NCBI RefSeq assembly: GCF_003415675.1
Contig: NZ_QFZK01000004.1
Coordinates: forward strand, 1-64,000
DNA from: Rhodoferax lacus
Lineage (GTDB): Bacteria; Pseudomonadota; Gammaproteobacteria; Burkholderiales; Burkholderiaceae_C
Direction of reading: 5' to 3'
Length of the DNA stretch: 64,000 bases
Below are positions 2,330-39,549 of the stretch, piece after piece. The position numbers were made by a program, and so were the translations under genes. The notes under the pieces are model-generated. The model was not told the origin of the DNA, made no database searches, and was given only the letters and a program-made list of their open reading frames with translations. Within the stretch, counting starts at the first letter, position 1; every line of letters begins with the position of its first letter.

Positions 2330-2357
2330 TTTCACACCGTTGTCATCAATGTTTCAC
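2330..2357 (+). promoter_or_regulatory. Candidate Pho box upstream of the phn operon
   Basis: Three direct repeats start exactly 11 bp apart: TTTCAC (2330), TGTCAT (2341) and TTTCAC (2352). This spacing is the hallmark of PhoB boxes (tandem TGTCA-type half-sites one helical turn apart). It lies between the divergent HD-domain gene and phnC and points toward phnC. Activation under phosphate limitation is inferred. Confidence 0.7.
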
Positions 2358-2371
2358 GCGGGCTCGCCAAC

Positions 2372-3238
2372 ATGCCGGGCATGAGCACGCTTCCCGTCCC
2401 GGCTATTCGCATTACCCATGCCAGCAAGTCCTTCAACCGCCGCGCCAAAGCGCTGGACGGAGTGAACGCGACCATTGCGGTGGGTGAGTGCGTGGGGCTG
2501 CTGGGCGCCTCGGGCTCGGGCAAGTCCACCCTGCTGCGCAGCATCTGCGGCCTGGAGCGGCTGGACGGAAAGAGCAGCGCGGTGGAGCTGTTTGGCCAGC
2601 CCCTGCAGACCGGTGGGGTGCTGAGCCCGGACATACGCGCGCTGCGCCGCCAGACCGGCATTATTTTTCAGCAGTTCAATTTGGTGGGCCGCATGAACGT
2701 GCTCTCCAATGTGCTCACCGGCCTCTTGCCTGGCATGCCTTTGTGGCGTTCCCTGGCCGGGCGCTTTACGGATGCCGAGCATCTGCAGGCCCTGCAGGCG
2801 CTGGACTCGGTGGGCCTGGCCGACTACGCGTTTCAGCGCGCCTCCACCCTGTCGGGTGGGCAGCAGCAGCGCGCCGCCGTGGCGCGTGCCCTGCTGCAGG
2901 GCGCACGCATTCTGCTGGCCGATGAGCCAGTGTCTTCGCTGGACCCGGAGTCGGCCCGCCGCGTGATGGACCTCTTGCACCACCTCAACCGCAGCCAGGG
3001 CATGACCCTGGTGGTCAGCCTGCACAACGTCACCATGGCGCGCCGCTACTGCGACCGCATCATCGCCCTGCGCGCAGGGGAACTGGTGTTCGACGGCCCG
3101 CCCCTGGAACTCGACGACACCAAGCTGCGCTTCCTCTACGGCAGCAGTTCCGAAGAGTTGCTGACCGAGCACGACCCGCTCGATGCCCCTCCATTGCCTC
3201 TGCCTGTGTCACACCAGACTGAAGTGCTGGCTGCCTGA
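2372..3238 (+). CDS. phnC: Phosphonate ABC importer, ATP-binding subunit
   Basis: A 288-aa ATPase energising the phosphonate importer. Walker A is GASGSGKST (about residues 45-53), the Q-loop lies in IIFQQFNLVGR, the ABC signature is LSGGQQQR, Walker B is ILLADEP followed by VSSLDPES, and the H-loop is SLHN. The sequence is of the PhnC subgroup. ATG 2372 or 2381 could be the start; both lie close behind the Pho box, so 2381 is equally possible. It begins an apparent seven-gene run (phnC-D-E, Fe-ADH, FAD enzyme, phnX) with short gaps or overlaps. Confidence 0.93.
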   Translation: MPGMSTLPVPAIRITHASKSFNRRAKALDGVNATIAVGECVGLLGASGSGKSTLLRSICGLERLDGKSSAVELFGQPLQTGGVLSPDIRALRRQTGIIFQQFNLVGRMNVLSNVLTGLLPGMPLWRSLAGRFTDAEHLQALQALDSVGLADYAFQRASTLSGGQQQRAAVARALLQGARILLADEPVSSLDPESARRVMDLLHHLNRSQGMTLVVSLHNVTMARRYCDRIIALRAGELVFDGPPLELDDTKLRFLYGSSSEELLTEHDPLDAPPLPLPVSHQTEVLAA

Positions 3239-3266
3239 TCTTTTTCCCTTTTACTGGAGTACCCCT

Positions 3267-4214
3267 ATGAAACCTGTTTACGTTCTCGCCGCCTCCGTGC
3301 TGGCCCTGGGCAGCCTGTCTGCCATGGCCCAGGAAATCAGCTTCGGCATCATCGCCACCGACACGGCCAGCGTGGAGCGCGACCGTTGGGAGCCGCTGTT
3401 CCGCGACATGGAAAAGAAGACCGGCCTGACCATCAAGGCTTTCTATGCACCCGACTACGCCGGTGTGGTCGAAGCCATGCGCTTCAACAAAGTGCAAGTG
3501 GCCTGGTACGGCAACAAGGCCGCCATTGACGCGGTGGACCGCTCCAGCGGCGAAGTGTTTGCACAGGTGAAGAAGGCTGACGGCTCGCTGGGCTACTACT
3601 CCCTGCTCATCACGCAAAAAGACAGCCCCTACAACAACCTGAGCGATGTGCTCAAGAACAGCAAGACCATCAACTTCGGCATGGGCGACCCCGGCTCCAC
3701 CTCCGGCTTCCTGGTGCCCAGCTACTACGTGTTTGCCCTGAACAAGGTGGACCCACGCACCGCCTTCAAGACCGTGCGCAACGCCAGCCACGGCGCCAAC
3801 ATCCAGGCCATTCTGGCCAAGCAGCTCGATGTGGCCACCAACAACACCGAAGAGACCGACAAGCTCGAAGCCACCAAGCCCGAAGTGGCCAAGGAACTCA
3901 AGACCATCTGGAAGAGCCCGCTCATCCCCAATGACCCGCTGGTGTGGCGCAAGGACCTGGACCCGGCCATCAAGGCCAAGCTCAAAGGCTTCCTGCTGGC
4001 CTACGGCCAGACTGACGCTGACAAGGCCGTGCTGAAGAATATATACAACTACAGCGGCTTCAAGGAATCCACCAACGACCAGTTGGTGCCGATTCGCCAG
4101 CTGGAACTCTTCAAGAACCGCAGCAAGATCGAGAACGATGCCCAGTACAGCGCCGAAGAAAAAGCCAAGCTGATCGCCGAGATCGACCAGAAGCTGGCCG
4201 CTCTGGGCAAGTAA
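3267..4214 (+). CDS. phnD: Phosphonate ABC importer, periplasmic binding protein
   Basis: A 315-aa periplasmic receptor for phosphonates. It starts at ATG 3267 behind TGGAG, with a signal peptide ([21 protein letters not shown]) cleaved before QEISFGI. Family signs include [27 protein letters not shown] and the ligand-loop segment [12 protein letters not shown], where Ser/Thr residues hold the phosphonate in PhnD-type proteins. Length is usual. It lies 28 nt after phnC and 29 nt before phnE. The ligand cannot be told from sequence, but the neighbours point to 2-aminoethylphosphonate or a derivative. Confidence 0.93.
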
Positions 4215-4243
4215 TACCAAGCTGTCACACAGGCCTGCCCTCC

Positions 4244-5068
4244 ATGTCCGCCACTGCCACACCACCCGCCGCCTCTGCGCATCTGCAGACCCTGCTGCAC
4301 CAGGCCCGCGCCAGCCGCGGCGGCTGGCGCACGCAGCTGGGCTGGGTGGTGGTGCTGGCCGTGCTGGCCTGGGCCTGGCAGGGGGCCGAGATGCGCCCGC
4401 TGGACCTGATCAAGGACGCGGGCAATATGGGCATCTTTGCCAGCGAATTTTTTCCGCCCGATTTCCATGACTGGCGCATCTACCTCAAAGAGATGCTGGT
4501 CACCCTGCATATTGCAGTCTGGGGCACGGTGCTGGCCGTGGTGGCTGCGGTGCCGCTGGGCCTTTTGAGCGCGCACAACGTGGCACCCCCGTGGGTGTAC
4601 CAGCCGGTGCGCCGCCTGATGGACGCCTGCCGCGCCATCAACGAGATGGTGTTCGCCATGCTCTTTATTGTGGCCGTGGGCCTGGGTCCGTTTGCCGGTG
4701 TGCTGGCGCTGTTTGTGCACACCACCGGTACGCTGGCCAAGCTGTTTGCCGAGGCTGTGGAGGCCATAGACCCGCGCCCGGTGGAAGGCATACGCGCCAC
4801 CGGCGCGCACAAGCTGGCCGAGTTGGCCTATGGCGTGATACCGCAGGTCATGCCGCTGTGGCTGTCGTATTCGCTCTACCGGTTCGAGTCCAATGTGCGC
4901 TCGGCCTCGGTGGTGGGCATGGTGGGTGCGGGCGGTATTGGCGTGGTGCTGTACGAGGTGATCCGCAGCTTCCAATACGCCCAAACCTGCGCCGTGCTGC
5001 TGATGCTGGTGGCCACGGTGACTTTGATTGATGTGTTCTCGGCATGGCTGCGCCAGCGCTTCATCTAG
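4244..5068 (+). CDS. phnE: Phosphonate ABC importer, permease subunit
   Basis: A 274-aa inner-membrane permease of the PhnE type with about six membrane segments. The binding-protein-dependent transport loop (EAA-like) is seen in [21 protein letters not shown], followed by [14 protein letters not shown], both typical of PhnE. A single permease gene implies a homodimer. Its end overlaps the next gene by 25 nt, so the transporter and catabolic genes are probably translated as one unit. Confidence 0.92.
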
Positions 5069-6180
5069 CCTGGGCCAACCCGGTACGCATTCATTGGGGT
5101 GCGGGCTGTTTCCAGAGCATTGCCGCCGATCAGCCCGTGGTGGTGCTGGCCGACCGCGCCGCCCTGGGCTATGAAGATGAGACCCTGCTGGGCGAGCGTC
5201 TGGGCGCGCAGTGCAAGGCCTGGAGCTGGTACCAGGGCGGGCTGGGCTCTGTGCCACTGGCGCAAATGCTGTGCGACGAACTCTGGCCCGTGCTGCAAGC
5301 GCACCCGCAGGCTGCGGTACTGGCCCTGGGCGGAGGCACCACGCTGGACCTGGCCAAGGTGCTGCGCTACCGCATGGCGGATAGCCGCATGGCAGCCGCC
5401 CACTGGCGCAACAACACCCTGCCTGAGCATGTGGAGCGCCACCCGCTGTGGCTGGTGCCCACCACTGCCGGCACCGGCAGCGAAGTCACGCGCTGGGCCA
5501 CGCTGTGGGACACCGACATTGCCGCACCGGCCAAGCTGTCCTGGGCGCCGGCAGACGGCTTTGCCGAGCAGGCCTTTGTGGACCCGTGCCTGAGCCTGAG
5601 TTGCCCGCAGCGTCTGACCCGCGACTGCGCACTCGACACCCTGGCCCATGCCCTGGAGTCGCTCTGGAACCGCAACGCCAACCCCATCACCGAAGCCCTG
5701 GCGCTGGATGCCGCGCGCCTGGTGCTGCACAACCTGCCCAGCGTGCTGGAGCAGCCCGGCAACATCGCCCTGCGCGCGGAGCTCTCGCGTGCCAGCCTGC
5801 TCGCAGGGCTGGCCATGTCGCAAACCCAGACCGCGCTGGCCCACGCCCTGTCGTATGCGCTGACGCTCAAGGAAGGACTGCCGCATGGCGAGGCCTGTGC
5901 CGTCTGGCTGCCCATGGTGTGGGAGCTTGCAGTGCAACAGTCGCCCAGCTGTGATGCCGCCTTGGCGCGCGTGTTTGGGGGCACGGTGCAGGAGGGCACA
6001 AAACAAGCTCCCCAGGAAGCTGCCCACGTGGGCGCACAACACGGCGCGCAGGCCCTGCGCCTGTGGCTGCAAACGCTGGGCGTTGCGCCGCGCGACTTGC
6101 GCCAGAGTGCATCAGGCCGCGCCCAACTGGATACAGAAATGCGGTCCGCCCGCGGAAGGAATTTCATTGTCAACCGATAG
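5044..6180 (+). CDS. Phosphonate-operon iron-containing alcohol dehydrogenase
   Basis: A 378-aa group III (iron-type) alcohol dehydrogenase of the subfamily tied to phosphonate operons. The NAD(P) site contains [13 protein letters not shown], followed by [12 protein letters not shown]. Metal ligands are expected in the Asp/His pattern of [16 protein letters not shown] and in GLPHGEACA. In phosphonate pathways such enzymes reduce or oxidise phosphonate aldehydes and alcohols (for example phosphonoacetaldehyde and 2-hydroxyethylphosphonate); the true substrate here is not shown. The C-terminal segment is somewhat diverged. It starts inside phnE and its 3' end overlaps the next gene by 14 nt. 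Confidence 0.88.
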
Positions 6181-7306
6181 CAGCAACAACAAGAGCGACC
6201 TGATCGTGGTGGGCTCCGGCATCGTCGGCATGGCCTGCGCGCTGGTGGCCATCGAGCAGGGCCTGAGCGTGCAGGTGGTGGAGCGCGACCCGGTGTGCAC
6301 CGGCGCCTCGATCCGCAACTTCGGCTTTGTCACCGTCACCGGGCAGGGCAGCGGTGCCACCTGGAATCGCGCCCGCCGCTCGCGCGACATCTGGGCCCAT
6401 GTGGCGCCCCAGGCCGGTATTGCCGTAGAGCATGCCGGGCTGTATGTGCTGGCCCAGCGCCTTGAAGCCGAGCCGGTGCTGCGCGAGCTGCTCAACACCG
6501 CCCAAGGCCTGCACCTGGAGTGGCTGGACCCTGAAGCCCTGCACCAGCGTGCCCCGCACCTGGCCCATGCCCATATACGCGGCGCGCTGTACAGCCCGCA
6601 CGAGCTGCGCGTGGAAGCGCGCTATGCCGTCGAGAAGCTGCGCCTGTGGCTGCAGTCGCGTGGTGTGCGCTTTCATATGGGGCAGTCGGTGCGCCAAGTG
6701 GAGAGTGGCAGCGTGCGCCTGGGCCAGCAAGAGCTGCAGGCCGAGCGCATTGTGGTCTGCCCGGGCCCGGACATCCGCAGCCTGTTCCCCGAGGCCTTTG
6801 CTGCCTACCAGACACGGCTGTGCCAGCTGCAGATGCTGCGCGTGCGCCCGCCTGCCGGTTACCAACTGGGTGCCGCGGTGATGAGCGACCTGAGCCTGGT
6901 GCGCTACCGCGGCTACAGCGAGCTGCCCGGCGCCCAGCGCCTGGAAGACCGGCTGCGCCTGGAGACGCCGCGCGAGCTGCAGCATGGCATTCATCTGATC
7001 GTGGTGCAGAACGCCGATGGCAGCTTGGTGGTGGGTGACTCGCACCAGTACGGCGATTCCATGCCGCCCTTTGTGCCGGCCGAAATGGAAGAGCTGATCC
7101 TGCAGGAAATGCAGCGCCTGCTGTGCCTGGGCCACTGCCACGTGGAAGAGCGCTGGACCGGCATCTACCCCAGCGGCTCGCAGGACGCGTTTATCGAGAC
7201 CGTGCTGCCCGGCGTGCAGCTGCTCAGTGTGATCAGCGGCACCGGCATGAGCACTGCCTTTGCCCTGGCCGAAGAATGCCTGATGGGCGAAAGGATTGCG
7301 ACATGA
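6167..7306 (+). CDS. FAD-dependent oxidoreductase of phosphonate operons, TTG start
   Basis: A 379-aa flavoprotein of the DAO superfamily. The FAD-binding Rossmann motif VVGSGIVGMACAL is near the N-terminus, and the C-terminal FAD contact is in LLSVISGTGMSTAFALAEE. Members of this phosphonate-linked family have been reported to oxidise aminoethylphosphonate or its N-methyl form to phosphonoacetaldehyde, the PhnX substrate; which applies here is unknown. The first in-frame ATG (5885) would bury the gene in the previous one. I choose TTG 6167, 6 nt after GGAAGGA (6154-6160), which puts the Rossmann motif about 15 residues in. The stop overlaps the phnX start (ATGA). Confidence 0.85.
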   Translation: MSTDSSNNKSDLIVVGSGIVGMACALVAIEQGLSVQVVERDPVCTGASIRNFGFVTVTGQGSGATWNRARRSRDIWAHVAPQAGIAVEHAGLYVLAQRLEAEPVLRELLNTAQGLHLEWLDPEALHQRAPHLAHAHIRGALYSPHELRVEARYAVEKLRLWLQSRGVRFHMGQSVRQVESGSVRLGQQELQAERIVVCPGPDIRSLFPEAFAAYQTRLCQLQMLRVRPPAGYQLGAAVMSDLSLVRYRGYSELPGAQRLEDRLRLETPRELQHGIHLIVVQNADGSLVVGDSHQYGDSMPPFVPAEMEELILQEMQRLLCLGHCHVEERWTGIYPSGSQDAFIETVLPGVQLLSVISGTGMSTAFALAEECLMGERIAT

Positions 7307-8106
7307 CGATTCAAGGCGTGGTGTTTGACTGGGCCGGCACCATTGTGGACTTTGGCAGCCTGGCCCCCATGGGTGCTTTTGTGCGCCTGTTTGCCAACCA
7401 TGGCATCAGCATCAGCATCGCCCAGGCCCGCGTGCCCATGGGTCTGCCCAAGCTGGCGCACATCGAGGCGCTGGGCGCCATGCCGGAAATTGCCGCGCAG
7501 TGGCAGCAGGTCAAAGGCCAGGCCTTCAGCGCTGCCGATGCTGCTGCCCTCCTGCAGGAGTTTGAACCCATGAGTGCGGCCAGCGCCATGGAGCACAGCG
7601 ACTTCATTCCCGGCTTCATTGACACCTATGCGTGGCTGCAATACCGAGGTATCGGCGTGGCCACCACCACCGGCTATACCCGCAGAATCATGACGCCATT
7701 GATCGCCAAGGCCGCCGCGGCCGGCTTTGAGCCGGTGCGCGTGATCTGCTGCGACGATGTGGCCCACAGCCGCCCCAGCCCCCTGGGCATGCAGGAGTGC
7801 ATGCGCGCCCTGGGCCTGGACGGACAGGGCGACACCGTGGTCAAGGTGGACGACACCGTGCCCGGTTTGCAGGAAGCCCACAACGCCGGCTGCTGGAGCG
7901 TGGGCGTGGCCGCCAGCGGCAACGCCCTGGGCTGGTCCTGGCAGCAGTGGGTGCAGGCCAGCGAGGACGAACGTGCGCCCGCCGTGAAAGCTGCCAGCCG
8001 CATGCTGCGCGATGCCGGTGCCCATGAGGTGATTGGCAGCGTGGCCGATCTGCACACTGCACTGGCCGCCATTGAGGCGCGCGTCGCCCGCGGCGAAAAG
8101 CCCTGA
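7303..8106 (+). CDS. phnX: Phosphonoacetaldehyde hydrolase
   Basis: A 267-aa HAD-superfamily enzyme (phosphonatase) that splits phosphonoacetaldehyde into acetaldehyde and phosphate. The nucleophile Asp9 is in VVFDWAGTIVDFG. The Schiff-base Lys50 is in VPMGLPKLAHI, the residue that separates PhnX from other HADs. Motif 2 is ATTTGYT, and the Mg-binding region is VKVDDTVPG. All key residues are present. It starts at ATG 7303 overlapping the FAD gene stop and ends the cluster. No PhnW transaminase is in the window, so the aldehyde is probably made by the upstream FAD enzyme. Confidence 0.95.
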   Translation: MTIQGVVFDWAGTIVDFGSLAPMGAFVRLFANHGISISIAQARVPMGLPKLAHIEALGAMPEIAAQWQQVKGQAFSAADAAALLQEFEPMSAASAMEHSDFIPGFIDTYAWLQYRGIGVATTTGYTRRIMTPLIAKAAAAGFEPVRVICCDDVAHSRPSPLGMQECMRALGLDGQGDTVVKVDDTVPGLQEAHNAGCWSVGVAASGNALGWSWQQWVQASEDERAPAVKAASRMLRDAGAHEVIGSVADLHTALAAIEARVARGEKP

Positions 8107-14612: not shown

Positions 14613-14651
14613 CTGACAGCGCCATGAAACCCTGATGGCAGTTGTGTGTCA
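14613..14651 (-). promoter_or_regulatory. Candidate Pho box upstream of ugd
   Basis: On the minus strand, four hexamers start exactly 11 bp apart: TGACAC (14651-14646), TGCCAT (14640-14635), TTTCAT (14629-14624) and TGTCAG (14618-14613), ending 33 nt before the ugd ATG. The spacing and TNTCA core fit two adjacent PhoB boxes. No strong -10 box stands out. Confidence 0.6.
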
Positions 14652-17115: not shown

Positions 17116-17224
17116 GGGTGTTCCGCCGAAATCTTGTTGAGAAAAATAGCCTGAGCATGCTGCAAGCATGTTTCATTATTGTGACAAGTTGGCGGCGTTC
17201 GGGTCAATGGCATGACCCTGCGGC

Positions 17225-17861: not shown

Positions 17862-17932
17862 AATGTAGGAACGCTGTGTGACGCATCGGTGAATCGCCTT
17901 GTGAAAGAGCGATGACTATTGCGCCAGATCAA
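17862..17932 (-). promoter_or_regulatory. Tandem Pho-box promoter of the 17.2-kb membrane protein gene
   Basis: Reading on the minus strand: TTGATCTGGCGCAA (17932-17919), then AGTCAT (17917-17912), TTTCAC (17906-17901), ATTCAC (17894-17889) and CGTCAC (17883-17878), spaced 11, 12 and 11 bp. A 10-bp spacer leads to a -10-like TACATT (17867-17862). This is the expected layout of a PhoB-activated promoter. The same arrangement recurs at 25307-25377. Confidence 0.6.
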
Positions 17933-23935: not shown

Positions 23936-23960
23936 AAAAAAACCCGGGCAAGCCCGGGTT
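23936..23960 (-). terminator. Rho-independent terminator of the porin gene
   Basis: Perfect 9-bp arms AACCCGGGC/GCCCGGGTT with a 2-nt loop, followed on the minus strand by seven T. It lies 34 nt after the porin stop and upstream of the phoX promoter, keeping the two units separate. Confidence 0.9.
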
Positions 23961-25039: not shown

Positions 25040-25078
25040 GTGACAAGTCCGTGTAACCGATATGAAGAAACTGTGACG
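25040..25078 (-). promoter_or_regulatory. Candidate double Pho box upstream of the porin
   Basis: Minus-strand hexamers CGTCAC (25078-25073), CTTCAT (25067-25062), TTACAC (25056-25051) and TGTCAC (25045-25040) start exactly 11 bp apart. They end 76 nt before the porin ATG. The spacing is regular and the first and last units are near consensus. Confidence 0.65.
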
Positions 25079-28983: not shown

Positions 28984-29000
28984 ATTACATTTTTGTGACG
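28984..29000 (-). promoter_or_regulatory. Weak Pho-like repeats upstream of CYTH-CHAD
   Basis: Minus-strand CGTCAC (29000-28995) and TGTAAT (28989-28984) start 11 bp apart, 17 nt before the first ATG. Only two units, one imperfect, and no -10 box fits downstream, so this could be chance. Confidence 0.3.
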
Positions 29001-30166: not shown

Positions 30167-30205
30167 TGTCACAGCCGCGTTATGCGCCTGTCACAAAAGT
30201 TGCAT
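30167..30205 (+). promoter_or_regulatory. Candidate double Pho box upstream of the chemoreceptor
   Basis: TGTCAC (30167), CGTTAT (30178), TGTCAC (30189) and TTGCAT (30200) start exactly 11 bp apart. Two units are perfect half-sites. A -10-like TGCAAT (30218-30223) follows after 12 bp, before the ATG at 30238. Confidence 0.6.
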
Positions 30206-30237: not shown

Positions 30238-31830
30238 ATGCAATTCATGAACAACGTGAAAATACGCACGCGGCTGTTGGCTCTGCTGGCTTTCTCAGTG
30301 GCCTCGCTGTGGATGCTGGGGGCCTTTTCCTCCCTGACCATCCTGCGCGTATCGGACCAGGCCACCGGCTTTATTGACCATGAGTTCAGGGCCGTGCGCG
30401 AGGTGGGTGGTGTGCACACCGCCATCAGCGACGCCAGGCGGTTTGAAAAAGATGTGCTGCTGACCATGGGCGATGACCAGGCCACCGAGCACCACACCGC
30501 GCTGTGGAACAAGGAGATCGCGCGTATACGCCAAGGGCTGAAAGACCTGGCGCCCCTGATCGCTGCGGATGAAGCGCCTGTGCTGGCAGCCACTTCGATA
30601 GCCATAGATGGCTATGAGCAGGGCTTCAAAGGCGTGCTGCAGCAGATTGCGCAGGGCGGACTGCACGACCCCTGGGCTGCCAATGCCGCCATGGCGCCTG
30701 TCATGGACAGCCTGCAACGCACGGACCATTCGCTGGCCACTCTGTCGGAGTCCATTGCCAAGCGGGCCCATGCCAAGCGGGAGCAACTGGTGCTGGCCGG
30801 TGCCGCGGCTCCCTGGGCTGTGGTGGGTGCCACGGTGCTGGTGTCGGTGCTGGCCTTGCTGCTGGTGCTGGCGCTGGTGCGTTCCATTCTGGCGCCGGTG
30901 GGCGAGCTGCAACGGGTGGCTATTGCCTGGGGCAGCGGTGACCTGAGCCAGGAGATGGTGCAAGCCGGCACGGACGAACTCGCGCAGGTGATGCAGGGCA
31001 TGGGACTGATGCGCGCGCAGCTCAGCCGCCTGGTCAACGAAGTGCAAGCGGGTGTGGAAATTGTGAACAACAACACCTCGGAAATTGCCAGCGCCAACAG
31101 CGACCTGTCGGTGCGCACCGAGCAGGCTGCCATCTCGCTGCAAAAGACATCAGCCTCGGTGGACCAGTTGTCCATGGCGGTGAAGTTGACCACCGAATCG
31201 GCAACGCAGGCGGTGGCCTCGGCGCGCGCAGCAGTGCAGGTGGCCGGTGAAGGCGGCAGCATTGTGGCCGGTGTGGTGCAGACCATGCAGGCCATCAACG
31301 TGTCTTCGCAAAAGATCACCGAGATCATTGGCGTGATTGAAGGCATTGCGTTTCAGACCAACATCCTGGCCCTCAATGCGGCGGTGGAAGCGGCACGCGC
31401 CGGGGAACAGGGCCGTGGCTTTGCCGTGGTGGCCTCCGAGGTGCGTTCCCTGGCAAGTCGTTCGTCGGGTGCGGCGCGCGAAATCAAATCCATCATCGGC
31501 GCCTCGGTGGAGCAGATTGAGGCCGGTACCCTCCAGGTGGAAAACGCCGGGCGCAAGATGCACGACATCGTAGCCAGCGTGGAGGGCGTCTCGGCCATCA
31601 TCGAGGACATCCGTCTGGCCTCCAACGAGCAGTTCGAGGGCATCCACCTGATCAGCGTGGCCATGGAGGGTATTGACCAGGCGACCCAGCAGAATGCCGC
31701 CATGGTGGAGGAGTCTGCCGCCGGCACGCGCAGCCTGGCCGATGAAGTCAGCCACCTGCGCAATGCCCTGACGGTCTTCAGGCTGACAGCCAGCCAGCCC
31801 GAAGAACTGCAGGCCCTGCCCGCTGCCTGA
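30238..31830 (+). CDS. Methyl-accepting chemotaxis protein
   Basis: A 530-aa chemoreceptor. TM1 lies near residues 10-35, then a periplasmic four-helix-type sensor of about 155 residues, TM2 near 195-218, a HAMP region (RSILAPVGELQRVA), and a long signalling coiled coil. The hairpin tip GIAFQTNILALNAAVEAARAG (about 368-388) binds CheA and CheW. The C-terminus lacks the CheR-tether pentapeptide. Start 30238 has GAAGG upstream; a much longer open frame to the left overlaps the divergent gene. The Pho-like promoter suggests it is made in phosphate-starved cells, like Pseudomonas CtpL, but its ligand is unknown. Confidence 0.92.
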   Translation: MQFMNNVKIRTRLLALLAFSVASLWMLGAFSSLTILRVSDQATGFIDHEFRAVREVGGVHTAISDARRFEKDVLLTMGDDQATEHHTALWNKEIARIRQGLKDLAPLIAADEAPVLAATSIAIDGYEQGFKGVLQQIAQGGLHDPWAANAAMAPVMDSLQRTDHSLATLSESIAKRAHAKREQLVLAGAAAPWAVVGATVLVSVLALLLVLALVRSILAPVGELQRVAIAWGSGDLSQEMVQAGTDELAQVMQGMGLMRAQLSRLVNEVQAGVEIVNNNTSEIASANSDLSVRTEQAAISLQKTSASVDQLSMAVKLTTESATQAVASARAAVQVAGEGGSIVAGVVQTMQAINVSSQKITEIIGVIEGIAFQTNILALNAAVEAARAGEQGRGFAVVASEVRSLASRSSGAAREIKSIIGASVEQIEAGTLQVENAGRKMHDIVASVEGVSAIIEDIRLASNEQFEGIHLISVAMEGIDQATQQNAAMVEESAAGTRSLADEVSHLRNALTVFRLTASQPEELQALPAA

Positions 31831-33729
31831 TCAGCGCGCTGCGCCCAGCAGCAGATTGGGCAGCCAGGTGGCCGTGGCCGGCACCAGCGCAATGGCCAGC
31901 GTGCCCAGAAAGATGGCCAAGAGTGCGGGCAGCACGGCCACGGCCACATAGCGCACCGGCTTGTTGAACATGGCCGAGGCAAAGTAGATGTTCATGCCGG
32001 CCGGCGGGCACAGAAAGCCCAGCTCCATATTGGCCAGGAAGATGATGCCGAAGTGCACCGGGTCAATGCCGTAGCTCATGGCCACCGGCAGCAGCAGCGG
32101 CACCAGCACCACCAGGGCGGCGAAGATTTCCATCAGGGCGCCGGCCAGGAACAGGAACACATTGAGCACCAGCAGAAACACCCACTTGTTGGGCACCATG
32201 CCTTGCACCCATTCAATGGCCATGTCGGGTATGCCGGCTTCAATCAGGAAGTTGGTCAGGCCCAGGGCCATGCCCAGGATCAGCATCACGCCACCAATGA
32301 TTTGCGTGCATTCGGCCAGTGTTGTGCCCAGCTTCTTCCAGCCCAGTTCGTGGTGCGCCAGCACCTGGGTCAGGATGGCATAGGCCGCTGCAATGGCGGC
32401 ACTCTCGGTCGGTGTGGCCAGGCCGCTGACCAGTGCGCCAATGGCCACTGCGGGGGCCAGGATTTCCCACTTGGCCTGCCACAGCGCAGCCCCGACCGCG
32501 GGGCGCTGTGCGGCCAGCCGGGGGGCAACTTCGGCAGGACTGGTTGCCGGGTCCAGCGTTGCTGAGTAAGCCGCAGGCAGGCGCCGCAGATACCCGCCCA
32601 GCACCAGCAAGAACACCACCATGATGCAGGCCGGCAGCAGCCCGGCCAGAAACATGGTGTTGATGGGCACGCGCGCAATGATGGCGTACATGATGAGCGG
32701 CACCGAGGGTGCCAGCAGCACGCCCAAGGCGCTGGCACTGGTCACCAGGCTGATGCCGCGCTGCTCCGGAAAACCGGCGTTGCGCAGCAGCGGCAGCAGC
32801 AGGCCGCCCAGGGCCAGGATGGTCACACCACTGCCGCCGGTGAAGGCGGTAAAGGCCGAGCACAGCACCGCAGCTGCCACCACCGTGCCGGTGGGGCCGC
32901 CGCCAAACAGCGCCACAAATACGGCACCCAGCCTCTTGGCCGCACCGGTACGGGCAAACACCAGGCCGGCCAGGGTGAACAGGGGCAGCGCAGGCAGCGA
33001 GGGGTTGACGGTGATCTGGTAGTGCGAGAGCGCGATGGACGCCAGCGGCAAGCCGTCCTGCCAGAACAGCGCCAGCGCCAGCGCGCCCAGTACCGAAAAA
33101 ATGGGGGCGCCACACAGCAGGCCCGCCACCAGGGCGATGACTGCGGGCCACACCGTCAGGGCAGTGCCGTCCAGCTGCCAAGCCAGCCACACACCCAGCA
33201 GCAGGGGCAGCGCAGACAACACGGTGCCCAGCTGCCGGGGCCAAGCGCCCAGACCTGCGGGCGTAGCAAAGGGCCGCATGCCCTGCACGCCCAGCTGCAG
33301 GCCCAACCACGCAAAACCCAGCGGCATGCTGGCCTGCAGCCACCACACCGGAATGCCGTAGGCCAGCAGGTGGGCCACCGGCCGCTCGCTGTCCACCAGA
33401 CGCCAGCTGGCCATGCACAAAAGGCCGCACACCAGGGCTGCAAACAGCAGGCCGTAGCGTTGGCTAAAAGTGGTCAGACGCGGCCAGGTGGCAGATGCAA
33501 AACCCTTGCCAAAGCTGCTCAGGTGGCCGTGGCGCAGCGCCGCCACCGAACCAAACATGGCCATTACCAGACCCAGGTGCTGCACGATGACCGAGGCATT
33601 CTCGATGCCGCTGCCCGCCAGCGGGCGCACCAGAATTTCCACCAGCGGAATCAGCGCCATCAGCACCAGTGCGCTGGCCGCCAGCACGCTGTCGAGCTGG
33701 CCCATCAGCCCTCGCAAACCCAGCTTCAT
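31831..33729 (-). CDS. dctM: TRAP transporter DctQ-DctM fusion permease
   Basis: A 632-aa fused TRAP permease. The first 170 residues form the small DctQ part (four membrane segments with VEILVRPLAG). The rest is the large DctM part with about twelve segments and typical motifs: FTGGSGVTILALGGLLLPLL, LLAPSVPLIMYAI, ATPTESAAIAAAYA and ELGFLCPPAGMN. It moves a substrate delivered by DctP, driven by the sodium or proton gradient. Its start overlaps the dctP stop by 4 nt (ATGA). The substrate is probably a C4-dicarboxylate or other organic acid, not certain. Confidence 0.94.
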   Translation of the reverse strand: MKLGLRGLMGQLDSVLAASALVLMALIPLVEILVRPLAGSGIENASVIVQHLGLVMAMFGSVAALRHGHLSSFGKGFASATWPRLTTFSQRYGLLFAALVCGLLCMASWRLVDSERPVAHLLAYGIPVWWLQASMPLGFAWLGLQLGVQGMRPFATPAGLGAWPRQLGTVLSALPLLLGVWLAWQLDGTALTVWPAVIALVAGLLCGAPIFSVLGALALALFWQDGLPLASIALSHYQITVNPSLPALPLFTLAGLVFARTGAAKRLGAVFVALFGGGPTGTVVAAAVLCSAFTAFTGGSGVTILALGGLLLPLLRNAGFPEQRGISLVTSASALGVLLAPSVPLIMYAIIARVPINTMFLAGLLPACIMVVFLLVLGGYLRRLPAAYSATLDPATSPAEVAPRLAAQRPAVGAALWQAKWEILAPAVAIGALVSGLATPTESAAIAAAYAILTQVLAHHELGWKKLGTTLAECTQIIGGVMLILGMALGLTNFLIEAGIPDMAIEWVQGMVPNKWVFLLVLNVFLFLAGALMEIFAALVVLVPLLLPVAMSYGIDPVHFGIIFLANMELGFLCPPAGMNIYFASAMFNKPVRYVAVAVLPALLAIFLGTLAIALVPATATWLPNLLLGAAR

Positions 33730-34745
33730 TTCGCCGGCAGGGCGCGGTAGGCCTTGACCTGTTTGAACACCTCGTCAAAGGTCTCGGCGGGCACCATGGT
33801 GCCGCGGATGCGCGGGTAGAGTTGTTCGGCCAGCGCGTTCCATTCCTGCATCTCGGCGGCGTTGGGCTTGTGCACGATCAGGCCGCGCTTCTTCATGGCT
33901 TCCACCGCATCGGTGACTTCCTGGCGCGCCTGCGCGCGCATCTGGCTTCCTGCCTTGTCACCGGCGGCGCGCAGGGCTTTTTGGGCCTCGGGTGTCATGG
34001 CCTCCCAGGACTTGGTGGTCACCACCATGGCGCCCACGATGGGGGCCCAGTTGATCTCCAGCATGTGGGGTGCCGTGTTGTAGACCTGGCTGGCCAGCGC
34101 GAAGTAGGGCGTGGAGGGCACCACGTTGATCATGCCGGTCTGGATAGAAGGCAGGATGTCGGCCGTCTCCAGCGGCACCGGCGTGTAGCCCAGGCTCTTC
34201 ATGATGGCTTGCTGCTCGGGCTCCGACCCCCAGGCAAAGAACTTCATGCGCTTGTAGTCCTCGGGGCGCACGGCCGCGTCCTTGCTGAAAAAGCGCACCC
34301 AGCCCGCATCGCCCCAGGCCAGCACCACAAAGCCCTTGTCCAGAAATTTCTTCTCCATGGCCGGGCGCATTTTTTCGCGCACAAAGTCCAGCTCTTCCCA
34401 GCTTTTGAACAGCAGGGGCAGGTTTTGCAGGGCGGTAATAGACGGCTCGATCTCGCGCAGGCCCACCACCGAGAGCAGCGCGCCCTGCAGCTGGCCTATG
34501 CGCATGCGGCGCGCCATTTCGGCTTCACCCCCTTGGCTGCCATCGGCATAGACCACGTACTTGGACGCGCCGCCCTGCACCGCGCGCCAGGTCTCGCCCA
34601 TCTCCAGCAGCTGGCGGTGGTAGAGCGAATTCTTGGGCGCCAGGGTGCCCACGCGCATCTGCATGTCGGCGGCCTTGGCCTGGGACGAGACAACACAGAT
34701 CAGAGCGAGCAGCAGGGCGGTGATGAATTTGGGCATGGGGAGCAT
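33726..34745 (-). CDS. dctP: TRAP transporter solute-binding protein (DctP type)
   Basis: A 339-aa periplasmic protein with a signal peptide (MPKFITALLLALICVVSSQAKA) and the DctP-fold opening MQMRVGTLAPKNSLYHRQL. The conserved Arg region is in FFAWGSEPEQQ, followed by QTGMINVVPSTPYFALASQVYN, typical of the ligand cleft and hinge. The start may be 34736. It is translationally coupled to the fused permease and preceded by the TatT-type gene, so these three form the TRAP operon. Confidence 0.93.
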   Translation of the reverse strand: MLPMPKFITALLLALICVVSSQAKAADMQMRVGTLAPKNSLYHRQLLEMGETWRAVQGGASKYVVYADGSQGGEAEMARRMRIGQLQGALLSVVGLREIEPSITALQNLPLLFKSWEELDFVREKMRPAMEKKFLDKGFVVLAWGDAGWVRFFSKDAAVRPEDYKRMKFFAWGSEPEQQAIMKSLGYTPVPLETADILPSIQTGMINVVPSTPYFALASQVYNTAPHMLEINWAPIVGAMVVTTKSWEAMTPEAQKALRAAGDKAGSQMRAQARQEVTDAVEAMKKRGLIVHKPNAAEMQEWNALAEQLYPRIRGTMVPAETFDEVFKQVKAYRALPAK

Positions 34746-34830
34746 GGGTGAAGTAACGTTGAAATCAGGGCAAAGAGGGGCGTAGAGATTTCTGGATGCG
34801 CAAGGCCTTTTGCAGCTGCAGTGGGCGGCC

Positions 34831-35742
34831 TTAAAACAGATCGTCCGCGCTGGAGAGCAGCCACTGGGCGCGCTCGCGCATCACGGCGTTCTGCAGATCG
34901 GGGTGCGCTGCTGCCACCTGCAAGGCCTGTTGCAGCAGGGCTTCAAAAGCCGCGCGGTCACCCGCCGGCAGGGCCACGCCCTCGGCCTTGGCCACCAGCG
35001 GGCTGGCCGCCGCAGCGCCCCCCAGAGCAATAGCCTGGTCAAAGTAGCCCAGCGCCTGGGCGCTGGAGCCACCGGGCCGGGCTGACTCGAAGCTGGCCAT
35101 CAACCCGGCCAGCGCGCCCTGGCCATAGCCGGGTTGGCGGGCATAGGCCAGTTGGGCCAGGCGCATGGCCAGCGGCAGGTCGGCCACGGTGTCGGGTTTG
35201 TCCTTGGACAGCGAGATCAGGCCACCCCAGCTGGCTGCACCCCAGTAGGCCAGGCCGACTTGCTCGGCGCGCAGCTGCGGCCAGTCTTTCGGGTTGGCAC
35301 TCTCCAGCGCGTGGCGAAAGCCGGGCTGGCTTTGTTCGAGTGCAGCCAGGGCGTGGCGGTTGGCACGGGCGTACAGGCGGGCGGCGCGCTCGCGCAAGGC
35401 CTGGGCGGCGCGGCTGTCGCGCGACTCGATGCGCTCGGCCTCAAAGGCCACAAAGGCATAGGCGTATTGGGTAAAGCCGCTGGCCAGGGCCTGCGACAAG
35501 GGCAAGTGGTCCGGCACTTCCTGCAACAGCGACTCAGACAGCTTCAGATAGAACGCGCTGGCCTCGCGTGCCAGCACCAGGTCGTCTTCGGGTGACTGGC
35601 CCTGTGCGGCCAGGCCATCGGCCATGCCGCGTACCAGCAAGAGGCGCGGCGAGCAGGCGCACAGGCCTGCAAGCACGGCGGCCAGCACGAGGGCGCGCCA
35701 GCAGATAGAGAGAGGAACGTGAAGTCGGGATGCTGCGGCCAT
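34831..35742 (-). CDS. TRAP-associated TatT-type lipoprotein
   Basis: A 303-aa protein of the TatT (TRAP-associated T component) family. It has a lipoprotein signal ending LAGLCACS, then helical repeats with SEDDL-like and LYARANRHALAALEQ segments, ESANPKDWPQLRAEQVGLAYWGAASWGGLISLSKDKPD (read in parts) and QPGYGQGALAGL. TatT of Treponema is a trimeric TPR protein that docks with its DctP partner, so this one is expected to feed the TRAP system downstream. The start is uncertain: 35742 or 35763, neither with a good ribosome site. Confidence 0.85.
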   Translation of the reverse strand: MAAASRLHVPLSICWRALVLAAVLAGLCACSPRLLLVRGMADGLAAQGQSPEDDLVLAREASAFYLKLSESLLQEVPDHLPLSQALASGFTQYAYAFVAFEAERIESRDSRAAQALRERAARLYARANRHALAALEQSQPGFRHALESANPKDWPQLRAEQVGLAYWGAASWGGLISLSKDKPDTVADLPLAMRLAQLAYARQPGYGQGALAGLMASFESARPGGSSAQALGYFDQAIALGGAAAASPLVAKAEGVALPAGDRAAFEALLQQALQVAAAHPDLQNAVMRERAQWLLSSADDLF

Positions 35743-35784
35743 GCGCAAATCTAGCCGCGCCATGTGTAAGAACGGTGACAAGGG

Positions 35785-35823
35785 CGTCATAAAAGCTTCA
35801 TGGGTTCGCCATGAATGGGTCAT
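35785..35823 (+). promoter_or_regulatory. Candidate double Pho box upstream of olsB-plcP
   Basis: CGTCAT (35785), CTTCAT (35796), CGCCAT (35807) and GGTCAT (35818) start exactly 11 bp apart, ending 23 nt before the olsB ATG. CATGAAT at 35810-35816 could serve as a -10 for the first pair. Phosphate control of ornithine-lipid genes is known in Sinorhizobium and others. Confidence 0.7.
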
Positions 35824-35846: not shown

Positions 35847-36680
35847 ATGAACACCATGCAAGAACCTCTCATCCAAGTGCGCGACAGTGTTGCCGTGCAG
35901 GCTCCCGCGGTCGCCCTGATTTCCACCCTGATCCAGGCCCCCAAGACGCAGCCGCAGGGCATCAAAGTGTCCTGGGCCCAGCACCACGACGAAGTGCGCG
36001 CTGCACAGAAGCTGCGCTATGACGTGTTTGCCGGCGAGATGGGCGCACGCCTGAGCACCCCCATTGCCGGCCACGATGTGGACCTGTTTGACAACTACTG
36101 CGAGCACCTGCTGGTGCGCGATACCGCCAGCGACCAGGTGATTGGCACCTACCGGGTGCTGACCCCCGTGCAGGCCAAGCGCGTGGGCAGCACCTACAGT
36201 GATACCGAGTTTGACCTGACCCGCCTGCGCAGCTTGCGCGAGCGCATGGTGGAGCTGGGCCGCAGCTGCGTGCACCCGGACCACCGCCATGGCGGCGTCA
36301 TCATGGCGCTGTGGGGGGCCCTGGCCGAGTTCATGACGCGCAACCAGCTCGACACCATGATTGGCTGCGCCAGCATCCCCATGCTGCACAACGGCGTGGT
36401 CAGCGGCGATGTGGCTGCCAGCATCTGGACCCAGCTGCAGGCCACGAACCTGGCACCGATTGAATACCATGTGCGCCCACGCCTGCCGCTGCCGGTGGAG
36501 CGCCTGGACTGCACGCTCAAGGTGGAAGCACCGGCGCTGATCAAGGGCTATCTGCGCCTGGGCGCCAAGGTGCTCGGGGCCCCGGCGTGGGACCCGGACT
36601 TCAACACCGCCGACCTGCCCATGCTGATGCGCATTGCCGATCTGCCCTCGCGCTACCGCAAGCACTTTCTGGGGGCCTGA
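35847..36680 (+). CDS. olsB: Ornithine N-acyltransferase (OlsB type)
   Basis: A 277-aa GNAT-fold enzyme of the OlsB family, which joins 3-hydroxyacyl groups from ACP to ornithine, making lyso-ornithine lipid. Landmarks are EVRAAQKLRYDVFAGEMGA, the DLFDNYCEHLLVRD segment, GTYRVLTP, ELGRSCVHPDHRHGGVI and IGCASIPM (each a short segment), all in order. Start 35847 follows AGGGGAA. The stop and the plcP start share bases (TGATG), so the two are coupled. Together with OlsA (38.7 kb) it gives a phosphorus-free membrane lipid. Confidence 0.9.
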   Translation: MNTMQEPLIQVRDSVAVQAPAVALISTLIQAPKTQPQGIKVSWAQHHDEVRAAQKLRYDVFAGEMGARLSTPIAGHDVDLFDNYCEHLLVRDTASDQVIGTYRVLTPVQAKRVGSTYSDTEFDLTRLRSLRERMVELGRSCVHPDHRHGGVIMALWGALAEFMTRNQLDTMIGCASIPMLHNGVVSGDVAASIWTQLQATNLAPIEYHVRPRLPLPVERLDCTLKVEAPALIKGYLRLGAKVLGAPAWDPDFNTADLPMLMRIADLPSRYRKHFLGA

Positions 36681-37561
36681 TGCGCGCCGTGCCCGGAATG
36701 TCAGCCAGCGACTGGATGGGTGCTGCCATGCAGACCGGCGGCGACTCTGACGAGGACGCACCCAAGCTGCGCTACCGCGCGGTCTTCATCTCCGACATCC
36801 ACCTGGGCACCGTGGGCTGCCAGGCCGAGGCCCTGCTGGACTTCCTGAAGCACCACCGCAGCGACTACCTCTACCTGGTCGGGGACATCGTGGACGGTTG
36901 GCAGCTGCGCCGCCGCTGGTTCTGGCCGCAGGCCCACAACGACGTGGTGCAAAAGCTGCTGCGCCGCGCGCGCAAGGGCTGCCATGTGGTGTTTGTGCCG
37001 GGCAACCACGACGAATTCGCCCGCGGCTTTGTGGGCCACAAGTTTGGCGACATCACCGTGCAAAAAGACACGGTGCACACCACGGCCCTGGGCCTGTCAC
37101 TGTGGATCACCCACGGCGACTACTTTGACGGCGTCATCCAGTGCGCCAAGTGGCTGGCCTACGTGGGCGACAACGCCTATGAATTCACCCTCAAGCTCAA
37201 CCGCAGCCTCAACTCCCTGCGCGCGCGCATGGGTCTGCCTTACTGGTCGCTCTCGCAGTACCTCAAGGGCAAAGTCAAGTCTGCACTCAACTATGTAACC
37301 GACTTCGAAGTAGCCGTGGCCAAGGAAGCACAACACCGCGGCCATGGGGGTGTGGTCTGCGGCCACATCCACCGCGCCGAGATGCGCGACATCAACGGCA
37401 CCCTGTACTGCAACGACGGCGACTGGGTGGAAAGCCGCAGCGCCCTGGTGGAGCATTTGGACGGCCGGCTGGAGATTGTGTTCTGGGACGAACTGGTGGC
37501 CCAGGAAGCCGCCGAGGCGGCGCGCGCCAAAGAGGTGCCGCTGCTGGAGATGAGTCACTGA
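36680..37561 (+). CDS. plcP: PlcP-type calcineurin-like phosphoesterase, lipid-remodelling phospholipase C
   Basis: A 293-aa metallophosphoesterase with all core motifs: FISDIHLG, VGDIVDGW, GNHDEF, ITHGDYFD and GHIHRAE. Relatives are LpxH and PlcP; the pattern DGWQLRRRWFWPQAHNDVVQKLLRRARKG, the YWSLSQYLKGKVKSALNY region and GDWVESRSALVEHLDGR (read in parts) are those of PlcP-like proteins. PlcP in Sinorhizobium and marine bacteria cleaves phospholipids to diacylglycerol under phosphate shortage. It is coupled to olsB behind a Pho box, which favours PlcP over LpxH. A terminator follows at 37721. Confidence 0.82.
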   Translation: MRAVPGMSASDWMGAAMQTGGDSDEDAPKLRYRAVFISDIHLGTVGCQAEALLDFLKHHRSDYLYLVGDIVDGWQLRRRWFWPQAHNDVVQKLLRRARKGCHVVFVPGNHDEFARGFVGHKFGDITVQKDTVHTTALGLSLWITHGDYFDGVIQCAKWLAYVGDNAYEFTLKLNRSLNSLRARMGLPYWSLSQYLKGKVKSALNYVTDFEVAVAKEAQHRGHGGVVCGHIHRAEMRDINGTLYCNDGDWVESRSALVEHLDGRLEIVFWDELVAQEAAEAARAKEVPLLEMSH

Positions 37562-37756: not shown

Positions 37757-37876
37757 TGGAAGCTCTGCGAGCTGCAGGTCAAACGCGTCGTCCCCTTCTG
37801 GCAGGCACAGCAGGCACCAGCTGTCGTCAAACAGTGCGTCGAGTATCTTTTTCACGCTGAAGAATTTGAAGAACAT
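37754..37876 (-). CDS. Small hypothetical protein, 40 aa
   Basis: On the minus strand ATG 37876 lies 8 nt behind AGGTG, and the frame ends in TAA at 37756-37754. It begins MFFKFFSVKKILDALFDD and contains a CLLC motif and acidic C-terminal half. No match known. It stands in a 488-bp stretch that otherwise has only two hairpins. Confidence is low because short frames arise by chance; the ribosome site and AT-richer, non-repetitive composition are its support. Confidence 0.35.
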   Translation of the reverse strand: MFFKFFSVKKILDALFDDSWCLLCLPEGDDAFDLQLAELP

Positions 37877-37960
37877 GCGCATCACCTATGGGAGTTGGTC
37901 AACGGCTCTAAGGTAACGGTGATGCGTGACGCTTGCGTGTCAGTTGGGTGAATATGCGAA

Positions 37961-37991
37961 GAAGCCCGGACTGCGATGCAGGCCGGGCTTC
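37961..37991 (-). terminator. Hairpin downstream of the H1-like gene
   Basis: 9-bp arms GAAGCCCGG/CCGGGCTTC with a 13-nt loop, 58 nt after the stop of the H1-like gene. Only a short TTC follows on the minus strand, so efficiency is uncertain. Confidence 0.55.
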
Positions 37992-38625: not shown

Positions 38626-38645
38626 GGCGGAACTCCAATTTTTAT

Positions 38646-38672
38646 AAACGATGTATATAGTTTATATCGTTT
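38646..38672 (-). promoter_or_regulatory. 27-bp AAAC...GTTT element, copy C
   Basis: Perfect 7-bp arms AAACGAT and ATCGTTT flank a 13-bp AT-rich centre, 20 nt before the ATG of the H1-like gene. It is the most symmetric of three related copies (A: 29039-29065, B: 30087-30113). The symmetry suggests a dimeric regulator. Confidence 0.55.
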
Positions 38673-38683
38673 GGCGTCCGCGT

Positions 38684-39496
38684 TCAAGCCGTCCCTTGCG
38701 CCAGGGCCAGGGCGAGCAGCAGGGTGCGTATCTGGCTGTGGGCTCTTTGGGCCAGCGTCTTGCGCGTCTGGCCCTGCACTTCAATGTGTTCGCCCAGATG
38801 CACCTGCGCGCACAGCGTGGACTGGCCCATCACCCGCAGCAGCGAGGCCAGCAGCGTCATCTCGCCGGTGAAATGGGCGGCATCGGAGGGCTGCCCCGTG
38901 GCGCGGTCTACATAGCGCAGGGTCAGGGTCTGCACCGGCGTGCCCGCGCGCAGGGCGCACTCAAAGATGTTGGCGTGGAAGGGGCCCAGGTCGCGTCCGT
39001 CGGTGCTGGTGCCCTCGGGAAAGGCCACCACGCACCAGCCGTTATGGATGGCCGTTACGCTGCTGTCCACCATGCTGTGGGCTGAACGTGCCGAGCTGCG
39101 GTCCACAAAAATCGTGGCGCAGGCCTGGGCCAGCGGGCCAATCAGGGGCCAGCGCTTCACTTCGGTCTTGGCCACAAACACGCCCGGCAAAACGGACTGG
39201 ATCACCAGAACATCCAGCCACGACAAATGGTTGGCCACTACCAGGCCGGCATAGTGGGCCGGTGTGGTGCCTTGGCTGTCCACCGTAACCTGCAGTGTCT
39301 GCAACACGCCCTGCGCCCATTGCTGGATGGCTTGGCGTTTTTGTTGGGTGTCATAGCCAGGGAAGTGGCGCGCCACCGTCTGGCCGCCGCGCAGGAAATG
39401 CAGCAGCACCTGCACGGCCTTGACCAGCCGCAGGCTGCGCCAGCCTTGCGGCGCCGGGATGGCGCTGCTCTGGGTCGCTGGGTGTACATGGGACAT
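38684..39496 (-). CDS. olsA: Lyso-ornithine lipid O-acyltransferase (OlsA/PlsC family)
   Basis: A 270-aa acyltransferase of the PlsC family, with NHLSWLDVL (the HX4D catalytic motif), VAKTEVKRWPLIG, FVDRSS and FPEGTSTDG in order and a hydrophobic stretch near residues 20-40. Small stand-alone enzymes like this include OlsA, which adds the second fatty acid to lyso-ornithine lipid. The nearby olsB and matching Pho-like promoter favour that over PlsC proper. I use ATG 39496, since the -10-like TATGCT covers the bases just before 39505. The mRNA would have almost no leader. Confidence 0.8.
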   Translation of the reverse strand: MSHVHPATQSSAIPAPQGWRSLRLVKAVQVLLHFLRGGQTVARHFPGYDTQQKRQAIQQWAQGVLQTLQVTVDSQGTTPAHYAGLVVANHLSWLDVLVIQSVLPGVFVAKTEVKRWPLIGPLAQACATIFVDRSSARSAHSMVDSSVTAIHNGWCVVAFPEGTSTDGRDLGPFHANIFECALRAGTPVQTLTLRYVDRATGQPSDAAHFTGEMTLLASLLRVMGQSTLCAQVHLGEHIEVQGQTRKTLAQRAHSQIRTLLLALALAQGTA

Positions 39497-39505
39497 AAGC
39501 GGCAC

Positions 39506-39549
39506 AGCATAGGCAGACTGTGTGACAGAACGGTGTCAGTCGTGTGGCG
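39506..39549 (-). promoter_or_regulatory. Candidate Pho box and -10 of olsA
   Basis: Minus-strand CGCCAC (39549-39544), TGACAC (39538-39533) and TGTCAC (39527-39522) start exactly 11 bp apart. After a 10-bp spacer comes TATGCT (39511-39506). This is the same design as before phoX and the 17.2-kb gene. Confidence 0.65.

Follow-up and report, generated by a model that had tools for sequence, protein, structure and literature searches.

Gene content of the window and arrangement of the repeats

The first 64,000 nucleotides of contig NZ_QFZK01000004.1 of Rhodoferax lacus (hereafter the window; the first part of contig C51 in an assembly of 71 contigs and 4.9 Mb) contain a series of genes for phosphonate use, phosphatase, polyphosphate and lipid functions, many of which are preceded by tandem TGTCA-like hexamers, that is, candidate binding sites (Pho boxes) for the response regulator PhoB. 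A preliminary description of this DNA listed eight such arrays. All eight are present and each is oriented toward its gene; read in the direction of that gene, TGTCAY-like hexamers recur every 11 bp, with the single 12-bp step that had been pointed out in the array of the gene at 17.2 kb (TTTCACAAGGCG-ATTCAC). The number of sites, however, had to be corrected to 13 candidates, because five more precede the genes for PPK2 (17170), a CYTH-CHAD protein (28984), a TRAP transporter (35764), an HD-domain protein (2289) and a protein of 40 codons (37926). The features are as follows, with gene identities given at the family level.

1697-2266, reverse strand: HD-domain protein adjoining the phosphonate operon (Pfam HD, E 0.0066, below the cut-off)
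2289-2316, reverse strand: tentative candidate Pho box before the HD gene (three-unit score 14.7)
2330-2357, forward strand: Pho box before phnC, three units, TTTCAC/TGTCAT/TTTCAC (three-unit score 24.0, the best in the window)
2372-8106, forward strand: phosphonate operon phnC-phnD-phnE, iron-dependent alcohol dehydrogenase, FAD oxidoreductase (TIGR03364), phnX (Pfam, NCBIfam)
13257-14579, reverse strand: ugd, UDP-glucose 6-dehydrogenase family (Pfam)
14613-14651, reverse strand: Pho box before ugd, four units (score 26.0, the best four-unit site)
16192-17115, reverse strand: PPK2 polyphosphate kinase (Pfam E 7.6e-110; ATG at 17115)
17170-17186, reverse strand: Pho box before ppk2, two units, newly listed (score 16.3)
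17225-17830, reverse strand: Mpo1-like membrane protein, 201 residues (weak PF06127 match)
17878-17917, reverse strand: Pho box before the Mpo1-like gene, one 12-bp step, -10 hexamer TACATT (repeats, orientation and -10 checked)
21874-23838, reverse strand: phoX alkaline phosphatase (Pfam E 7.8e-16)
23901-23917, reverse strand: Pho box before phoX, -10 hexamer TAGGAT (four-unit score 10.6 over 23901-23939)
23995-24963, reverse strand: porin (Pfam Porin_4)
25040-25078, reverse strand: Pho box before the porin gene, four units (score 21.1)
27492-28958, reverse strand: CYTH-CHAD protein (Pfam)
28984-29000, reverse strand: tentative candidate Pho box before the CYTH-CHAD gene (score 14.8)
30167-30205, forward strand: Pho box before the chemoreceptor gene (mcp), four units (score 21.7)
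30247-31830, forward strand: methyl-accepting chemotaxis protein (Pfam MCPsignal, HAMP; start inferred, ATG checked)
31831-35742, reverse strand: TRAP operon, TAtT T-component, DctP and fused DctQM (Pfam; start inferred, ATG checked)
35764-35780, reverse strand: Pho box before the TRAP operon, two units, -10 hexamer TAGATT, newly listed (score 13.9)
35785-35823, forward strand: Pho box before olsB-plcP, four units (score 11.9)
35847-37561, forward strand: olsB, then the metallophosphatase gene plcP, so named from context (Pfam; NCBIfam OlsB models E 4.5e-48, below the cut-off)
37757-37876, reverse strand: 40-residue protein of a new family, unannotated gene (homologues; dN<dS)
37926-37964, reverse strand: Pho box before the 40-residue protein gene, -10 hexamer TACCTT, ribosome-binding-site-like AGGTGA, newly listed (three-unit score 16.2)
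38684-39496, reverse strand: olsA-like acyltransferase (Pfam; NCBIfam OlsA models E 3.2e-36, below the cut-off)
39522-39549, reverse strand: Pho box before olsA, -10 hexamer TATGCT (two-unit score 17.8, the best in the window)

All 13 sites are oriented toward the start codon and lie 14-76 nt from the assigned start (starts partly inferred). Each comprises two or more direct repeats with a TGTCA-like core and 11-nt spacing, apart from the 12-bp step in the Mpo1-like array. The TRAP and olsB boxes stand back to back. The phnC box ends only 14 nt before the first ATG, so translation of phnC may start later, at 2381. In the phosphonate operon, TIGR02315, TIGR03364 and TIGR01422 score above their NCBIfam cut-offs and the alcohol dehydrogenase model TIGR03405 below.

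Density of the sites and phase of the -10 hexamer

The Pho-box matrix was derived from pstS promoters of relatives, with the window's own genome excluded, using the 19 of 29 promoters that had a clear two-unit site (the other 10 were omitted); these sites were chosen with a consensus sequence. The thresholds were 13.5 for two units, 14 for three and 10 for four, and the scan covered 1.26 of the 4.9 Mb. In the window, all 13 sites that it detected fall within the first 40 kb, and 40-64 kb has none; another 1,158 kb from elsewhere in the genome also gave 13, the chance level there (reversed matrix, 16). The Poisson probability for 13 sites against 0.45 expected in 40 kb is ~3e-15. With stricter thresholds, seven sites remain in the 40 kb compared to three in the 1,158 kb, and five of the eight arrays originally listed survive (phnC, ugd, porin, mcp and olsA).

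The possibility that the repeats are chance matches, or merely the AT-rich sequence of ordinary promoters selected by eye, has to be weighed against these counts. The units are short, and on 40 random strands (first-order Markov) the matrix scores up to 19.3 for two units and up to 18.4 for three, in the range of the weaker sites; phoX (10.6), TRAP (13.9) and CYTH-CHAD (14.8) would thus be inconspicuous alone. The two-unit scores of olsA (17.8), ppk2 (16.3), the Mpo1-like gene (14.6) and TRAP (13.9) are all below the random maximum, and for these four the tests of density and conservation therefore carry the weight. It also speaks against our interpretation that the thresholds were fixed after the ranking in the window was known, low enough to retain the phoX and olsB sites. 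Nevertheless, the reversed matrix finds only two sites in the same 40 kb, the best four-unit score on the random strands is 12.9, compared to 26.0 for ugd, 21.7 for mcp, 21.1 for the porin and 19.3 for phnC, and the olsB, TRAP and phoX promoters keep the box in homologues, with no match to the reversed matrix (see below). For the set as a whole, chance was rejected by the random strands, the reversed and column-permuted matrices and the 1,158 kb taken from the rest of the genome, and we consider this explanation barely conceivable. The notion that the sites outscore random sequence accordingly holds for the four-unit arrays and for the density of the set, and fails for the weak two- and three-unit scores taken singly.

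The phase of the putative -10 element provides additional evidence. The hexamer located 10 nt past the last repeat gives 39 matches to TATAAT over the 13 sites, compared to a mean of 18.2 (standard deviation 4.5, maximum 28) for 39 other offsets. Three sites had been credited, without names, with a -10-like box. The hexamers of the Mpo1-like gene (TACATT), phoX (TAGGAT) and olsA (TATGCT) each match TATAAT at four of six positions; without these three, offset 10 gives 27 matches and the other offsets at most 23. The five newly listed sites alone give 15 matches at offset 10, again the highest of all offsets. The hexamers of TRAP (TAGATT) and olsB (AACAAT) likewise match at four of six positions, and those of ugd and mcp at only one each. 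As a set, the sites have a -10 element at a fixed distance.

Conservation of the boxes in homologous promoters

Two kinds of promoter sets were compared. One was taken from olsB loci, the 80 OlsB relatives retained being mainly from Rhodoferax, Curvibacter, Acidovorax, Variovorax and unnamed beta-proteobacteria; the counts leave out matches starting after residue 70, loci too close to a contig end and identical sequences. The larger sets, for the Mpo1-like, TRAP DctT, CYTH-CHAD and HD genes, consist of the best 30 loci per search, own genome included, where the searches had matched 93, 41, 31 and 101 genomes, respectively; 5 of 29 CYTH loci and 1 of 29 HD loci were excluded. A GGDEF gene was meant as the control in this comparison and gave no usable promoters (n = 0).

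The olsB box is present in 74 of 82 homologous promoters and the phoX box in 7 of 10, which for these two genes supports the proposed assignment to PhoB; the reversed matrix gives no match for any gene of the olsB-loci set. In the larger TRAP set, the box precedes the DctT gene in 20 of 29 promoters (reversed matrix 0; permuted matrices, mean 0.5, maximum 5), one of the 20 (L296) being the box of a 40-residue protein gene just upstream; the olsB-loci set contributes a single DctT promoter, which stays below the threshold. In 23 of the 29 TRAP promoters, TANATT stands exactly 10 nt behind a two-unit box, a pairing seen at none of the other offsets between 4 and 19, and the window shows the same arrangement. 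The predicted membership of the TRAP operon in the Pho regulon is well supported. The box of the Mpo1-like gene exceeds the threshold in 13 of 30 promoters, including the window's own (reversed, 0 of 30), and in one of four in the olsB-loci set, where the other three are barely below. One of two mcp homologues has the box, and so does phnC of the relative G018 (84% identical). For plcP, the second gene of its operon, there is no box in 46 promoters, and for the gene adjoining olsA none in eight. The phnC matches in the olsB loci (24 promoters, none with a box; 14 printed at 31-34% identity) were taken for other ABC ATPases and not counted.

The Pho box, PhoB and the pst loci

The strict motif TGTCAYN5TGTCAY has three matches in 4.9 Mb (backward control, 0), and all three precede either the two pstS genes or a fasciclin gene divergent from one pstS. 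Given this confinement to pstS loci, the motif can be equated with the Pho box of this organism. The three-unit pattern TKWCAY has one match in 4.9 Mb, in front of phnC in the window. In two stretches picked for holding pst, the matrix finds five sites, namely, those of both pstS genes, the fasciclin gene and ppk1 (by sequence), plus one other. The fasciclin-domain protein (L001 949-1458, reverse strand) has a four-unit Pho box with a score of 24.4, and its gene adjoins pstS in four relatives; the second pstS, on C70 (L003 414-1457, reverse strand), has its own strict Pho box.

The PhoB model TIGR02154 is passed by a protein encoded at C61:196059 (329 bits), ~3.5 kb behind the first pstS. A second response regulator, at C11:69116-69793 (L005, 306.5 bits), also exceeds the cut-off, and OmpR-family binding sites are likewise tandem repeats, so another regulator of this family with a PhoB-like site might control part of the set. 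The matrix, however, was derived from pstS promoters, the majority of the genes are phosphate-related, and the C61 protein both scores best and adjoins pstS; we regard control by a different regulator as highly unlikely. The proposed assignment to PhoB appears sound in that a pstS-trained matrix recovers the sites, the strict motif marks the pstS loci and most of the genes are classical members of the phosphate-starvation response, all of which points to, rather than demonstrates, control by PhoB.

The proposed island in related genomes

In four relatives (G018, G389, G014 and G008), homologues of many of the genes in the window lie next to pstS. The respective regions, selected for co-located matches, contain 45 boxes in 147 kb (reversed matrix, 2). 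In G018, 33 kb encompass the HD gene (cut), phnCDE to phnX, the Mpo1-like and CYTH-CHAD genes, TRAP, olsB-plcP, the 40-residue protein gene, olsA, the fasciclin gene and pstS. G389 and G014 have no phn genes in the fetched stretch; G008 has ppk2, ugd and the Mpo1-like and TRAP genes, without olsB-plcP there. Where both members of a gene pair could be placed in a same-genus genome, no more than 25 kb separates the 40-residue protein gene from pstS in 9 of 14 genomes, from CYTH-CHAD in 16 of 28 and from DctT in 7 of 17 (many assemblies are fragmented, pstS was taken from same-genus genomes only and second matches were omitted). Between CYTH-CHAD and TRAP, G018 has a PhoD-like phosphatase (by eye; L382 13779-15512, reverse strand) with a Pho box upstream (C30:51791, score 18.3) that may serve this gene or the next one.

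Because many of the same genes are found beside pstS in these relatives, the window most likely represents a portion of an island of the PhoB regulon with about a dozen separately switched genes or operons, a reading that we consider ~93% probable from the sequence data. The suggestion that the sites gathered in 37 kb form a phosphate-starvation island is in line both with the excess in density and with the four relatives. In the window genome, pst is on another contig (C61), and contig breaks mask the true distance; the window may be a fragment of an island that was once continuous.

Several observations weigh against this reading or against individual members. The opposite strand of the olsB promoters also gives boxes in 22 of 82 cases, with divergent genes and chance unsorted; at the remaining genes, the opposite strand adds 12 boxes altogether, and part of the opposite-strand boxes may serve divergent genes. 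Conservation is incomplete for olsA (5 of 12 homologues) and ppk2 (3 of 6), and no porin homologue was found in the olsB loci compared. The box is present in only 5 of 28 HD promoters (reversed, 0), in 5 of 24 CYTH-CHAD promoters of the larger set (reversed, 0) and 3 of 9 in the olsB-loci set, and in none of three ugd homologues; ugd of G008 has no box directly upstream on its strand. In terms of the conserved box, the earlier assignment to PhoB is borne out in part for olsA and the gene at 17.2 kb and finds no support for ugd in these three homologues. The window copy of the Mpo1-like protein misses the PF06127 cut-off (17.1 bits compared to 24), and comparison of its predicted fold with the PDB gave 61 matches at E <= 10 but none at E <= 0.001. 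The box of the 40-residue protein gene exceeds the threshold in none of 23 distant homologues. Finally, in a Variovorax, a relative, the phn genes are reported to respond to methylphosphonate in a manner that the authors set apart from ordinary Pho control; pstABCS and phoB are upregulated there without phosphate (PMC12226003).

The low conservation of the CYTH-CHAD, HD and ugd boxes invites the narrower interpretation that only part of the set responds (e.g., phn, phoX, ols, plcP, ppk2 and TRAP), these three boxes being non-functional. Set against this are the ugd site itself, which has the highest four-unit score in the window, and the proximity of CYTH-CHAD to the 40-residue protein gene in more than half of the genomes with both. 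We view this partial response as a possibility to be taken seriously, if less likely than a response of the whole set, and treat CYTH-CHAD, the HD gene and ugd as weaker, tentative candidate members of the putative PhoB island.

A family of 40-residue proteins

The smallest predicted member is the unannotated 40-residue protein. A single-sequence search found 13 homologous proteins and a profile search 241, with the family consensus MFWKFFSVxKILDALFDDSWCxLGLPE. Counting the window's own genome, 57 of 103 same-genus genomes carry the gene (34 of the 51 good assemblies), as do 14 of 399 family-sample genomes; the search of the olsB loci did not find it. The nonsynonymous rate (dN) is lower than the synonymous rate (dS) in all 15 computable pairs (26 codons); for the other two of the 17 pairs, no dS was obtained. 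Pfam has no family for this protein beyond chance-level matches, and a search of 26 members with an E limit of 10 gave no match to DUF1127 (most matches above ~0.1 are discarded by the program).

Among the close homologues found by the single-sequence search, taken together with the window, 13 of 17 have a box over the threshold (reversed, 0); when more upstream sequence is included, the count is 14 of 18. About 19 of the distant homologues carry a two-unit site of lower score, usually at -63 to -68 and followed 10 nt later by a -10 hexamer; in about four, nothing clear is seen. The permuted matrices give a mean of 0.3 and a maximum of 5 of 40; one of 41 homologues remained unlocated. Conservation of the predicted box is limited to the closer group of homologues. 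In relatives, the neighbours of this gene (by eye) include ppk1, ppx, plcP-olsB, DctT and chemoreceptor genes.

It is tempting to speculate that this protein is produced when phosphate runs short and adjusts the response, e.g., by binding PhoR, PhoU or a membrane or polyphosphate enzyme, and that Rhodoferax and its relatives carry a near-complete PhoB regulon as one island of individually promoted genes; as a whole, this scenario is doubtful. Small proteins of the DUF1127 family are described in PMC12501420 as binding PhoR and resemble the 40-residue protein in being very small and tied to phosphate control, but the 40-residue sequences do not match that family.

Proposed mechanism and comparison with known Pho regulons

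Under low phosphate, PhoR would phosphorylate PhoB, which is encoded outside the window, next to pst. PhoB would then bind the 11-bp repeats head-to-tail and recruit sigma-70 polymerase to the -10 hexamer 10 nt downstream, so that separate genes would be switched on, for phosphonate uptake and breakdown, PhoX, the porin, PPK2, the chemoreceptor, TRAP, the Mpo1-like protein and the 40-residue protein. Induction of olsB-plcP and olsA would lead to replacement of phospholipid by ornithine lipid. The functions suggested for the TRAP transporter, the Mpo1-like protein and the small protein are predictions of the same kind as PhoB binding and the phosphate response. Such a mechanism is already known; what looks new is the gathering of the genes, together with TRAP, the Mpo1-like protein and, above all, the 40-residue protein.

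As proposed at the outset, the spacing follows the known rule for PhoB: according to PMC4415409, the PHO box of Escherichia coli consists of tandem 11-nt direct repeats, with CTGTCAT as the best conserved motif, and the window sites are built in the same way. Unlike the Pho regulons of E. coli and other bacteria, the window has 13 candidate sites in one 37-kb block, with an own box for each gene or operon, joined in some relatives by pstS. The study PMC10132767 on Phaeobacter MED193 lists PlcP, PPK2, PhoX and parts of the carbon-phosphorus lyase in the phosphate response, which is mostly phoB-dependent, with residual PhoX in the phoB mutant. This organism is an alphaproteobacterium that, in contrast to the OlsB/OlsA of the window, makes its lipid substitute via BtaA; its TRAP transporter EtoX, unlike the prediction for TRAP in the window, imports ethanolamine and is induced by the substrate, also in the phoB mutant (PMC10132767). 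The words 'ornithine' and 'Rhodoferax' do not occur in the available part of PMC12226003, and titles and abstract openings in the open-licence literature describe no Pho island in Rhodoferax or Comamonadaceae.

The Mpo1-like membrane protein resembles the family PF06127 in being helical, with invariant histidines (predicted fold with a mean pLDDT confidence of 85.9), and PF06127 matches all 21 aligned members (best E 1.3e-4), although, unlike PF06127 proper, the window copy scores below the cut-off. The gene is present in 93 of 299 family-sample genomes, own included, and the apparent link of this family to phosphate is a candidate novelty within the literature searched.

The analysis supplies a set of genes that may belong to the Pho regulon of a betaproteobacterial genus, in which lipid exchange, polyphosphate, phosphonate use, chemotaxis and a TRAP transporter would be joined under one switch, and three testable targets, the 40-residue protein, the TRAP substrate and the Mpo1-like protein. 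A regulon that is gathered yet forms no operon is also a case for asking why regulons cluster.

Other features of the window

The window contains no tRNA, tmRNA or Rfam family at the gathering score. An NMT1-like binding protein and a GGDEF-EAL gene (18007-21789, forward strand) are divergent from the Mpo1-like gene, with no box over the threshold on their own strand. A match to the HD gene is present in 101 of the 299 genomes of the family. The idea that ugd came from a plasmid was considered and found no support (five records, none with 80% coverage). Behind ugd lies the gene for a 645-residue protein (11236-13173, reverse strand) in which the pyruvate kinase barrel alone is recognized by Pfam; the box is present in one of two homologous promoters of this pyruvate-kinase-like gene.

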